Shown here: positions 24,552-27,406 of the stretch, piece by piece | How positions within the stretch are numbered: the first letter of the stretch is position 1 | Layout of the letters: every line of letters begins with the position of its first letter | NCBI GenBank assembly: GCA_017535725.1 | Contig: JAFXTO010000032.1 | Location: 1-61,373 of the forward strand | DNA from: Bacteroidaceae bacterium | GTDB taxonomy: Bacteria; Bacteroidota; Bacteroidia; Bacteroidales; Bacteroidaceae | Length of the DNA: 61,373 bases | Reading direction: 5' to 3' | Made by a program: the position numbers and the translations under genes | The notes under the pieces: model-generated | Told to the model about the DNA's origin: nothing | Seen by the model: only the letters and a program-made list of their open reading frames with translations | Databases searched by the model: none

Positions 24552-26096
24552 ATGGCACAACAAGAAGATGTATTTAAGAAAATAGTTTCCCACTGCAAGG
24601 AGTACGGTTTCGTATTCCCCTCCAGCGACATCTATGATGGACTTGGCGCCGTGTACGACTACGGACAGAACGGCGTGGAGCTGAAGAACAATATCAAGCA
24701 GTACTGGTGGCAGTCCATGGTGCTCCTGCATCAGAACATTGTCGGCATCGATGCCGCTATCTTTATGCATCCCACCACATGGAAGGCCAGCGGTCACGTC
24801 GATGCCTTCAACGATCCCCTCATTGACAACCGCGACAGCAAGAAGCGCTACCGTGCCGACGTCCTCATCGAGGACCAGATGGCGAAGTACGACGAGAAGA
24901 TTGCCAAGGAGGTCGCTAAGGCTGCGAAGCGCTTCGGCGATGCCTTTGACGAGGCTCAGTTCCGCGCCACCAACGGTCGTGTTCTGGAACTGCAAGCCAA
25001 GCGCGATGCCCTGCACGAGCGCTTCCAGAAGGCCATGAACGCCAACGACCTCGACGAGCTGAAGCAGATTATCCTCGACGAGGAAATCGTTTGTCCCATC
25101 AGCGGCACACGCAACTGGACCGATGTTCGCCAGTTCAACCTGATGTTCAAGACGGAGGTGGGCTCTACGGCCGAAGGTACCTCTACCATCTACCTGCGTC
25201 CCGAGACGGCTCAGGGTATCTTCGTCAACTACCTGAACGTCCAGAAGACGGGTCGTATGAAGATTCCCTTCGGCATCGCTCAGATAGGTAAGGCTTTCCG
25301 CAACGAAATCGTTGCTCGTCAGTTCATCTTCCGTATGCGTGAGTTCGAGCAGATGGAGATGCAGTTCTTCGTCAAGCCCGGCACCGAGCTCGATTGGTTC
25401 TCCAAGTGGAAGCAGACGCGTATGGCCTGGCACCAGGCTCTGGGCTTCGGCGCAGAGAACTACCGTTTCCACGACCACGACAAGCTGGCGCACTACGCCA
25501 ACGCCGCCACGGATATCGAGTTCCACATGCCCTTCGGCTTCAAGGAAGTCGAGGGTATCCACTCCCGCACCAACTTCGACCTCAGCCAGCACGCCAAGTA
25601 CAGCGGCAAGAAGATTGAATACTTCGACCCCGAGACCAACGAGAGCTACACCCCGTTCGTCATCGAGACCTCCATCGGCGTGGACCGTATGTTCCTCAGC
25701 GTCGTATGCCACAGCTACTGCGAGGAGCAACTGGAGAATGGCGAGACACGTGTCGTCCTGCGCCTGCCCGCAGCCCTCGCTCCCGTGAAGCTCGCCGTGA
25801 TGCCCCTCGTCAAGAAGGACGGACTGCCCGAGATTGCACAGCAGATTGTCAACGACCTCCGCTTCCACTTCAACTGCAAGTACGACGAGAAGGACACCAT
25901 CGGCAAGCGCTACCGTCGCATGGATGCCATCGGTTGCCCCTACTGTGTCACCATCGACCACGACACGCTCAACGACCATTGCGTCACCCTGCGTGACCGC
26001 GATACGATGGAGCAGCAGCGCGTGCCCATCGCCGACCTCCAGTCCATCATCGAGGACAAGGTCAGCATCACCAGCTTGCTGAAGAGACTGCTGTAA
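24552..26096 (+). CDS. glyS: glycine--tRNA ligase (dimeric, GlyQS type)
   Basis: 514 residues of the single-chain class II enzyme found in Bacteroidota, not the alpha2beta2 form. Motifs seen: YGFVFPSSDIYDGLG.. at the N-terminus, TSTIYLRPETAQG and GKAFRNEI (motif 2), and the GVDRMFLSVV motif 3. The C-terminal anticodon-binding domain runs from APVKLAVMPLV. It charges tRNA-Gly. The TAA stop at 26094-26096 is followed after one base by the left end of an inverted-repeat element. Confidence 0.95.
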   Translation: MAQQEDVFKKIVSHCKEYGFVFPSSDIYDGLGAVYDYGQNGVELKNNIKQYWWQSMVLLHQNIVGIDAAIFMHPTTWKASGHVDAFNDPLIDNRDSKKRYRADVLIEDQMAKYDEKIAKEVAKAAKRFGDAFDEAQFRATNGRVLELQAKRDALHERFQKAMNANDLDELKQIILDEEIVCPISGTRNWTDVRQFNLMFKTEVGSTAEGTSTIYLRPETAQGIFVNYLNVQKTGRMKIPFGIAQIGKAFRNEIVARQFIFRMREFEQMEMQFFVKPGTELDWFSKWKQTRMAWHQALGFGAENYRFHDHDKLAHYANAATDIEFHMPFGFKEVEGIHSRTNFDLSQHAKYSGKKIEYFDPETNESYTPFVIETSIGVDRMFLSVVCHSYCEEQLENGETRVVLRLPAALAPVKLAVMPLVKKDGLPEIAQQIVNDLRFHFNCKYDEKDTIGKRYRRMDAIGCPYCVTIDHDTLNDHCVTLRDRDTMEQQRVPIADLQSIIEDKVSITSLLKRLL

Positions 26097-26097
26097 T

Positions 26098-26219
26098 AGA
26101 CCCACCCCCCGCCAAGCCCGTCCTCAGCAGAGGATTTCTGCTTCGGTCGCTCAGGACGGCTTGACATTCAGTCAACCCGTTAAATCCCTCGCTACCTGTG
26201 AGGGAGGGAGTGGTTACCT
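26098..26219 (+). repeat. left inverted arm of the DUF559 element
   Basis: 122 bases, inverted copy of 26658-26779. Contains an internal hairpin around CCCTCGC..GAGGG near 26186-26207. Confidence 0.85.
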
Positions 26220-26226
26220 ATGTGAA

Positions 26227-26628
26227 ATGGCTTACAAGACTTCCTGCCCAGACAGGTATGGATTGCTGAAAGGATTTGCACGGGAAAATCGTAAGAATCC
26301 TACTTTGGCTGAGGTCGTGTTGTGGGACAACATTTGAGATGAGAGCTTAGGTGTTAAATTCCTTCGTCAGCACATCATAGGTGATTATATTGTGGATTTC
26401 CTGGCCCGAAGTGAAGGACTAATCATTGAGGTCGATGGCGCCTATCATGCTGAACGACTCCAACAGGAGGACGATGCTGTCAGAACCGAGTTCCTCCGCT
26501 CAATGGGTTATAACGTCCTGCGTTTCACCAACGAACAAGTTTTATATGACACCGATAACGTCATACAACAAATAAAAGATTATTTCGAAAAAGGCATAAT
26601 TCTCAATAATAGCTACAATGTTATTTAA
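26227..26628 (+). pseudogene. DUF559 (Vsr/MutH-like) endonuclease with in-frame TGA
   Basis: Reading from ATG 26227, the frame encodes 133 residues with one TGA at 26335-26337. Before it: AYKTSCPDRYGLLK, then ENRKNPTLAEVVLWDNI; after it: DESLGVKFLRQHIIGDYIVDF, LIIEVDGAYH and GYNVLRFTNEQV. This is the complete DUF559 pattern, with the PD-(D/E)XK-like core in DYIVDF and IEVDG. The TGA sits where an Arg (CGA) is expected in NIRDE, so a single C-to-T change explains it. The part after the stop could start at a GTG at 26392 but would lack the first helix. Probably inactivated recently. Confidence 0.75.
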
Positions 26629-26657
26629 GAATATACTTAAGAGTATACATTTTCCAA

Positions 26658-26779
26658 AGGTAACCACTCCCTCCCTCACAGGTAGCGAGGGATTTAACGG
26701 GTTGACTGAATGTCAAGCCGTCCTGAGCGACCGAAGCAGAAATCCTCTGCTGAGGACGGGCTTGGTGAGGGGCGGGTCT
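26658..26779 (-). repeat. right inverted arm of the DUF559 element
   Basis: Inverted copy of 26098-26219. Its outer 15 bases overlap the predicted start of the FKBP-like lipoprotein gene (GTG 26765). Confidence 0.85.
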
Positions 26780-27406
26780 GTTTTGTTGCTCATATTAGCC
26801 CTTACCTCCTGCTCCTCCGACTCCGAGGACTATGATCCTTATTACGACTGGCAGTCGCGCAATGCTGCGTGGTATGAGCAGATTGCGGACTCCGCACGCA
26901 CGGCCATTGCCCAGGCCCGTAGTGAGTATGGTAGTGAATGGGAACAGCATTGTGACTGGCGGATGATTAAGTCGCTGATGATCAGCCCCTCGGTCCAGAA
27001 AGGCAGCACGACGGACAGCGTGTGTGTGCATATCATGAAGCGTGGTACGGGCGACTTCTCTCCGACCTTTTCGGACAGCATCCGCATCAGCTTCCGCGGA
27101 TGGCTGATGCCTACCCGCAACGAGTTTGGGGTCATGGAGGAGCTCACGTTCACCCAGACGTACTACGGAGACTATAGTCCTGCCACCGCAGCACCTCAAC
27201 TGGCGGCCGTAGGAGCGTTCACGGAGGGATTCTCCACCGTGCTTCAGTACATGGTGGAGGGCGACGACTGGATGGTCTATATTCCCCAGCAGCTTTTCTA
27301 TGGTAGCACCGATCAGGATGCCATTCCCGCCTACAGCACCGCCCGCTTCCGTATTCAGCTCTTAGCCATCTATCCTTCTGGCACCACGGTTCCAGAGTGG
27401 AAATAA
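26765..27406 (+). CDS. FKBP-type peptidyl-prolyl isomerase lipoprotein, probably divergent
   Basis: From GTG 26765 the protein has 213 residues: a short lipoprotein signal (SVLLLILALTSC), an acidic linker (SDSEDYDPYYD) and an FKBP-like domain (VHIMKRGTGDFSPTF, SIRISFRGWL, DWMVYIPQQLFYG, FRIQLLAIYP). An FKBP-like gene after glyS is, to my memory, a usual Bacteroidota arrangement. The frame stays open upstream through the right arm of the DUF559 element to an ATG at 26618, but that start would place about 50 hydrophilic residues before the signal. The native 5' end was probably replaced by the insertion. Confidence 0.75.
   Translation: MRGGSVLLLILALTSCSSDSEDYDPYYDWQSRNAAWYEQIADSARTAIAQARSEYGSEWEQHCDWRMIKSLMISPSVQKGSTTDSVCVHIMKRGTGDFSPTFSDSIRISFRGWLMPTRNEFGVMEELTFTQTYYGDYSPATAAPQLAAVGAFTEGFSTVLQYMVEGDDWMVYIPQQLFYGSTDQDAIPAYSTARFRIQLLAIYPSGTTVPEWK

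Follow-up and report, generated by a model that had tools for sequence, protein, structure and literature searches.

A DUF559 nuclease gene between inverted C-rich hairpin arms beside glyS, probably a decayed copy of a mobile unit

Arms and genes at the glyS locus

The window is the whole stretch of DNA analysed here (61,373 nt). Two inverted arms enclose one DUF559 gene directly downstream of glyS, and a shorter element lies near the start of the window. The features are:

132-297, no strand assigned: looks like an arm-only (nuclease-less) element, with arms at 136-158 and 272-294 and a hairpin at 183-208
24552-26096, + strand: glyS (glycyl-tRNA synthetase), the upstream neighbour, named in the initial sequence reading and used as the anchor in relatives
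26098-26219, + strand: left inverted arm with an AGACCC start, a C-rich tail and a hairpin (repeat search and alignment)
26114-26185, + strand: stretch of ~72 nt within the left arm, absent from the shorter same-site arm in G065 (L116) (sequence reading)
26186-26204, + strand: core hairpin of the left arm, CCCTC-loop-GAGGG (sequence reading; a hairpin there also in predicted folds)
26227-26628, + strand: DUF559 (PF04480) nuclease gene, interrupted by an in-frame TGA at 26335-26337
26618-27406, + strand: FKBP_C-type ORF, probably a lipoprotein, its N-terminal part read through the right arm
26658-26779, - strand: right inverted arm, 119/122 identical to the left arm (repeat search and alignment)
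26692-26763, - strand: matching 72-nt stretch within the right arm (alignment and sequence reading)

An earlier sequence-only reading had described inverted 122-bp arms with about three mismatches in the outer 14 bases. We found exactly this: the left arm and the reverse-complemented right arm differ at arm positions 7, 12 and 14, and the repeat search lengthens the arms to 135 nt at 95% identity. The insertion point was also placed correctly, one base past the glyS stop, since the TAA occupies 26094-26096 and the left arm starts at 26098. The gene between the arms matches the Pfam profile PF04480/DUF559 at 112 bits, above the cut-off, as does its paralogue. No other ORF of at least 60 aa was found wholly between the arms, so no HUH tyrosine transposase gene lies there. 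Hence, DUF559 stands as the sole gene inside, as had been claimed, but the in-frame TGA at codon 37 had been overlooked and the reading frame is not intact. Because of this stop, the window copy is probably broken and non-functional.

The 132-297 element had been proposed as a possible nuclease-less relative. Its inverted arms are 23 nt long at 96% identity with a C-rich hairpin between them, and it does look like an arm-only relative of the DUF559 unit. We think it fairly probable that the segment beside glyS represents a degenerate copy of a mobile unit in which a pair of inverted C-rich hairpin arms encloses a single DUF559 gene.

Form and dispersal of the arms

The usual arm in this genus consists of a C-rich tail and a short hairpin such as AGACTCTCCCCCCGCCCTCCC-loop-GGGAGGGAGC, and arms of this form surround both other stand-alone DUF559 genes of the window's genome. 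Most DUF559 arms in the genus are ~20-50 bp, and the 122-bp arms of the window are unusually long. As we read it, the long arm is a normal arm plus the same ~72-nt stretch in both copies. Since both arms share this stretch, they would either have been homogenised after that change or derive from a single source.

We searched with a generic arm pattern, whose expectation was 0.00 in 100 shuffles of the window. The window holds a single match, at 183-208; its own long arms do not match the pattern, so their significance rests on the 119/122 identity. The window's genome holds 143 matches, and numbers range from 0 to 143 per genome across 61 genomes of the genus; these counts are pattern matches in which an arm with six C in a row counts twice and arms beside DUF559 genes are included. 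The reversed pattern, used as control, gave 0 matches in all 61 genomes. Counting the two window arms themselves, the window arm matches 31 times in its genome. Shuffled sequences fold less well than either window arm (z -2.7 and -3.3), and the folding of a normal short arm is unremarkable (z -1.1). Two further copies of the long arm, 83-84% identical and in direct orientation, lie elsewhere in the window's genome (G000:C66:10755-11040).

The glyS-lipoprotein junction in relatives

We searched 139 genomes of the genus with the lipoprotein gene; 86 matched, and 30 loci were taken (L104-L133). In all 30, glyS lies near the lipoprotein gene. We found that the junction varies widely in content. 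Two relatives (G065 and G067) carry a DUF559 unit that reads without the window copy's stop, and four (G107, G138, G129 and G002) carry C-rich arm pairs without the full gene. In G002, the last 16 nuclease codons are left between the arms (alignment score 80; shuffles reach at most 31). The nearest relative, G043, reads as having an apparent scar, six others (G111, G029, G123, G019, G016 and G113) have AT-rich inverted pairs, and G026 has a GxxExxY gene (PF13366). The nuclease thus appears to have been lost or broken at this junction in several lineages. Since the window copy is broken and stop-free DUF559 occurs at the same junction in two relatives, the window insertion need not be recent.

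Other relatives have clean, short glyS-lipoprotein spacers. In G102, the lipoprotein start and the glyS stop overlap; glyS is 95% identical there over its last 150 aa. No target-site duplication was seen at the glyS insertion. The junction (window 26060-26830) is thus a hot spot that has received DUF559 units, C-rich pairs, AT-rich pairs and a GxxExxY gene.

One DUF559 sub-family occupies the glyS junction in the window's genome (G000), G065 and G067 and a different place in G005. The G005 copy is 86% identical in amino acids to the window copy, compared with 84% for the same-site copies, and it adjoins a gene that reads, by eye, like L-rhamnose isomerase.

In the window, the FKBP_C-type ORF stays in frame across the right arm, and at several filled junctions the lipoprotein frame likewise reads across it (PSLxGRxGG...). 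Because the frame runs through the arm, the right arm appears to have become the beginning of the lipoprotein signal sequence. Elsewhere in the genus, other genes start with the arm-like peptides SAPSQKGRAGGES and APSLTGRGRGGS (L103:13979-14948 and L046). Arms may have become the N-termini of proteins more than once.

The nuclease family and its constraint

We found that the DUF559 profile matches PDB 3hrl ('Endonuclease-Like Protein', E 5e-38) and PDB 3r3p ('Mobile intron protein', E 5e-6), the latter of which we take to be I-Bth0305I, and weakly matches PvuRts1I (E 3e-3). E15, D43, E54, D56, H60 and D69 are invariant in 14 DUF559 sequences; these acidic and histidine residues are presumably the catalytic ones. 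On these profile matches, DUF559 is a small PD-(D/E)XK nuclease of the Vsr/EDxHD homing-endonuclease type.

Both the nuclease family and its homing kinship are already known. A 2005 study reports that a profile of YcjD, the Escherichia coli DUF559 member, detects Vsr (PMC1189080), and a DUF559 gene has been placed in the EDxHD homing family (PMC9403480). The Caulobacter DUF559 protein VsrA is reported to be required for the DNA-damage response upon removal of a cytosine methyltransferase (PMC12907096), which indicates that a DUF559 member can act on DNA in cells.

The dN/dS ratio is 0.04-0.12 in the six of 19 DUF559 pairs where it was computable, four of the six spanning the whole metH insert and some host codons; DUF559 is under purifying selection where measured. 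Among 50,697 phage records, DUF559 matches occur in six, four of them under helicase annotation.

Inverted arms accompany DUF559 genes

Enrichment of DUF559 genes between inverted arms bears directly on the mobile-unit idea. In the genus set (70 loci, with 74 hits reduced to 68 distinct DUF559 genes), 59 of the 68 genes are flanked within 400 bp by an inverted pair scoring at least 30 bits. In comparison, inverted flanks of at least 30 bits were found at only 5 of 247 other ORFs from these loci (247 of 283 ORFs, from 36 loci, were testable; the remaining flanks were too short). These control ORFs rule out ordinary flanking terminators or REPs. The top four arm-flanked control ORFs include one 23S-IVP gene and one GxxExxY gene. 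With this enrichment, and with glyS/FKBP junctions that lack the insert (e.g. G102, G038 and G048), the mobile unit suggested by the sequence-only reading is well supported.

A second, named set came from a scan of public genomes and is mostly alpha-, beta- and gammaproteobacteria, plus Nitrospirae, Planctomycetota and others; it is the best 80 of 542 confirmed stretches, found with proteobacterial-type patterns, and is therefore an uneven sample. Here, inverted or direct flanking copies occur at 57 of 79 DUF559 genes compared with 19 of 388 control ORFs, and inverted copies alone at 50 of 79 compared with 11 of 388 (79 of 80 loci and 388 of 469 control ORFs were tested, the flank being too short otherwise). 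At one Neisseria gonorrhoeae locus (L180), copies of ~115 bp beside DUF559 are direct, not inverted; the other Neisseria locus (L181) has no flanking copies at threshold. Loci without arms at threshold (9/68 in the genus, 22/79 in the named set) count against our main reading.

The arms also vary with the protein. Across 56 of the 68 genus loci (those whose arms reach 30 bits and whose ORF is readable), arm similarity tracks DUF559 protein similarity (Mantel r 0.22, p 0.002), whereas no such relation holds for the sequence immediately outside the arms (r -0.005, p 0.56). The rank correlation between arm and protein drops to 0.13 without close pairs, which counts against our main reading.

Arm number follows gene number as well. 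DUF559 is patchy in the genus (37 of 61 genomes), and arm matches climb with the number of DUF559 genes (rho 0.63) over these 61 genomes, which are not independent by relatedness and many of which are incomplete; three genomes with weak hits only (G011, G057 and G060) were scored zero for DUF559 number. At least 10 arm matches occur in 22 of 34 genomes with a strong DUF559 hit compared with 3 of 27 without, and no arm match occurs in 2 of the 34. These comparisons show that the arms and the DUF559 gene form one unit that is found at many unrelated sites, with arm-only derivatives dispersed.

In-frame insertion and the metH alleles

DUF559 was found in 222 of 395 genomes of the phylum, and open frames of at least 390 aa hold 46 of the best 150 DUF559 matches listed there. 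Pfam found DUF559 and host domains together in 8 of 8 frames scanned. The in-frame hosts are methionine synthase, leucyl-tRNA synthetase (two sites), RecG, HsdR, HsdM, an Eco57I-type enzyme and a methylmalonyl-CoA mutase fusion. On both sides of the nuclease, arm-encoded peptides continue the host frame (e.g. SPSPKEKG and LPLGEDLGEG, by eye). In five genus genomes, DUF559 also lies, by eye, in frame upstream of an apparent guanylate kinase (L042, L045, L051, L078 and L079); the frame in L051 contains a stop.

We explored methionine synthase further. The metH query matched 94 of 120 genomes of family f6, most open frames being ~890-930 aa. At one linker, in the 51 of 72 loci given where the pattern was located, 23 alleles carry arm-DUF559-arm and 28 are empty. 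The empty allele reads ...LLPFIEAEKDGK..AGKILMAT and the filled allele ...LLPFI-arm-DUF559-arm-GKILMAT. Filled alleles are without linker codons present in the empty ones; hence, host bases were replaced. No target duplication was seen at the metH insertion, and the empty alleles read have neither arms nor DUF559. Two insertion points, a few codons apart, occur within one genus.

In that genus, the query matched 138 of 150 genomes, and 15 filled and 24 empty alleles were read. The filled and empty states require at least 10 changes on the host-gene tree, forced by well-supported branches (mean with shuffled labels 12.2), in a non-random sample of long frames and best-scoring short ones (39 of 41 loci given were used). 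Plain excision could hardly bring back the replaced codons, and we therefore take most of these changes to be gains or replacements of alleles. Of 20 closer pairs, only about two (L336/L345 and L260/L347) have a nuclease core that is clearly more similar than the flanks; this counts against our main reading, and recent transfer of metH inserts is at most suggested. As the alleles read, filled and empty forms alternate among species of one genus, with metH bases replaced and the target not duplicated.

All 23 filled metH frames run straight through arm-DUF559-arm, and no intein domain was found in L169, the one of the 23 that was Pfam-scanned. As read in the metH frames, the DUF559 unit would thus not be housed in a self-splicing intron or intein.

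These alleles bear on two other explanations. DUF559 could be a free-standing homing endonuclease gene that spreads by allelic recombination, the arms being pre-existing, inert REP-like landing sites. The EDxHD homing kinship reported for the family (PMC9403480) would fit, as would the filling of the same metH, leuS, recG and hsdR sites in several genomes. However, the metH arms come and go with the gene, and free-standing homing leaves copies at unrelated sites and the arm-only derivatives unexplained. We therefore judge it improbable. The second explanation, an immobile housekeeping nuclease of very-short-patch repair beside terminator-like or REP hairpins, draws on the proposal that the DUF559 protein VsrA acts in this repair in Caulobacter (PMC12907096). 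It is at odds with the patchy presence in the genus, with the rarity of such flanks at control ORFs, with in-frame insertion in unrelated genes and with the repeated changes at one metH site, and we give it very little credence.

Position of the units relative to genes

We compared outer arm ends with ORFs predicted by length only. Among 44 nearest ORF stops within 60 bp, 26 lie at -4 to +7 bp, compared with 2 of 23 nearest ORF starts within 60 bp (22 more stops and 18 starts lie beyond 60 bp). In the loci read, the DUF559 unit either adjoins a stop codon or lies in frame within a host protein.

Other gene families with the same layout

Two other families in the same genus share this layout. 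In the loci L388-L417 and L418-L447, we found 20 of 30 GxxExxY/PDDEXK_3 genes and 19 of 28 genes for the 23S-IVP four-helix bundle (28 of 30 were testable) between inverted arms. Each family has its own arm type, differing from the C-rich DUF559 arms. Examples of arm-flanked GxxExxY or 23S-IVP genes are L071:9001-9364 and L088:8863-9247. Since these families share the layout, and IVP is not known to be a nuclease, a mover independent of any nuclease is possible. Either such layouts represent sister classes, or hairpin-bounded units of any kind are moved by a host process.

The latter leads to a third alternative, in which the arms are a hairpin element driven by the host or mobilised otherwise (by replication slippage, another enzyme or a RAYT) and DUF559 is one of several passengers. 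The two families with their own arms speak for it, as does the sharing of the glyS-lipoprotein junction by DUF559 units, AT-rich pairs and a GxxExxY gene in different species. So do the arm matches in 12 of the 27 genomes without a strong DUF559 hit, 92 of them in G018, which has no DUF559 hit at all; this distribution counts against a nuclease-driven reading. On the other side, the arms are family-specific and co-vary with DUF559 sequence, arm matches increase with DUF559 number, and the nuclease is under purifying selection where measured. We consider passenger status unlikely, though less so than the two alternatives above.

A proposed mechanism

The reading that we favour, and hold to be reasonably likely, is a REPtron-like or homing-like element whose copying is promoted by a Vsr/EDxHD-type nuclease and not by a transposase. 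DUF559 would cut at, or close to, the hairpin arms or an unoccupied target site. Repair would then take the element, or another arm pair elsewhere, as its template, and the unit would thereby be copied without a transposase. Arm pairs that lack the gene would depend on a nuclease acting in trans, as has been proposed for REPs and RAYTs. Copying-in by repair would explain both replacement rather than duplication and the arm-only derivatives.

More tentatively, DUF559 nucleases might be the missing mobilisers of C-rich palindromic repeats in many bacterial phyla, acting by transposase-free, nuclease-primed copying. Arms and gene kept open in the host frame would then allow survival inside essential proteins without splicing, and GxxExxY and 23S-IVP would be the heads of two sister classes.

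Comparison with known systems

REPtrons (REP with RAYT/TnpA-REP) are already known (PMC3733652). Like the DUF559 unit, they are described as having a gene between short palindromes, many dispersed gene-less copies, positions close to gene 3' ends and specificity between gene and repeat (PMC3733652, PMC2817692). The DUF559 unit differs in having a PD-(D/E)XK nuclease where REPtrons have an HUH tyrosine transposase, and its arms are C-rich, typically start near AG(A/C)CC and have no GTAG tag (by eye).

The DUF559 nuclease is homologous to EDxHD/Vsr-like homing endonucleases (PDB 3r3p; I-Bth0305I), and the two have in common repeated insertion at a single site of conserved genes and a patchy presence among close species. 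In contrast, the DUF559 unit lies in a protein frame with no intron or intein seen, carries hairpin arms of its own at both ends and also exists as arm-only copies. The unit thus appears to resemble REPtrons in its anatomy and homing endonucleases in its distribution.

Palindromes in frame are already known from Rickettsia (PMC10969869), and Rickettsia palindromic elements and CGTC REPs resemble the DUF559 unit as palindromic repeats in frame in unrelated genes (PMC10969869, PMC3733652). The former are described as ~150 bp, too short for such a gene, and the latter as having no known mobilising gene (PMC10969869, PMC3733652), whereas the DUF559 unit carries a nuclease inside and has no CGTC tag at the arm end (by eye). 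For the arms read in this genus, we rejected DUF559 as the partner of CGTC REPs: CGTC occurs only within the 72-nt stretch of the window arm, and the arm ends lack it.

MITEs have similarly short, inverted-repeat, gene-less derivatives, and at least one internal deletion of the full DUF559 unit is visible (G002). Unlike for MITEs, no DDE transposase parent was seen for the DUF559 unit, and no target duplication at glyS or metH.

In the literature, covered mostly at the level of titles and abstracts, we found nothing joining DUF559 to REP-like arms, to arm-only copies or to splicing-free in-frame insertion. The DUF559-arm unit is apparently a widespread, undescribed kind of mobile unit, with nuclease-bearing copies in frame in metH, leuS and recG and no sign of splicing. 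Since filled and empty alleles of these three genes occur in related species, gain, cost and mechanism are directly measurable.

In E. coli, the DUF559 gene ycjD looks stable, which counts against our main reading. We rejected this locus as an empty-site test, since the alternative allele is the eef efflux operon (PMC12817139) and not an empty site. The C-rich repeat beside ycjD recurs elsewhere, at a median of 4 places per genome with a match.
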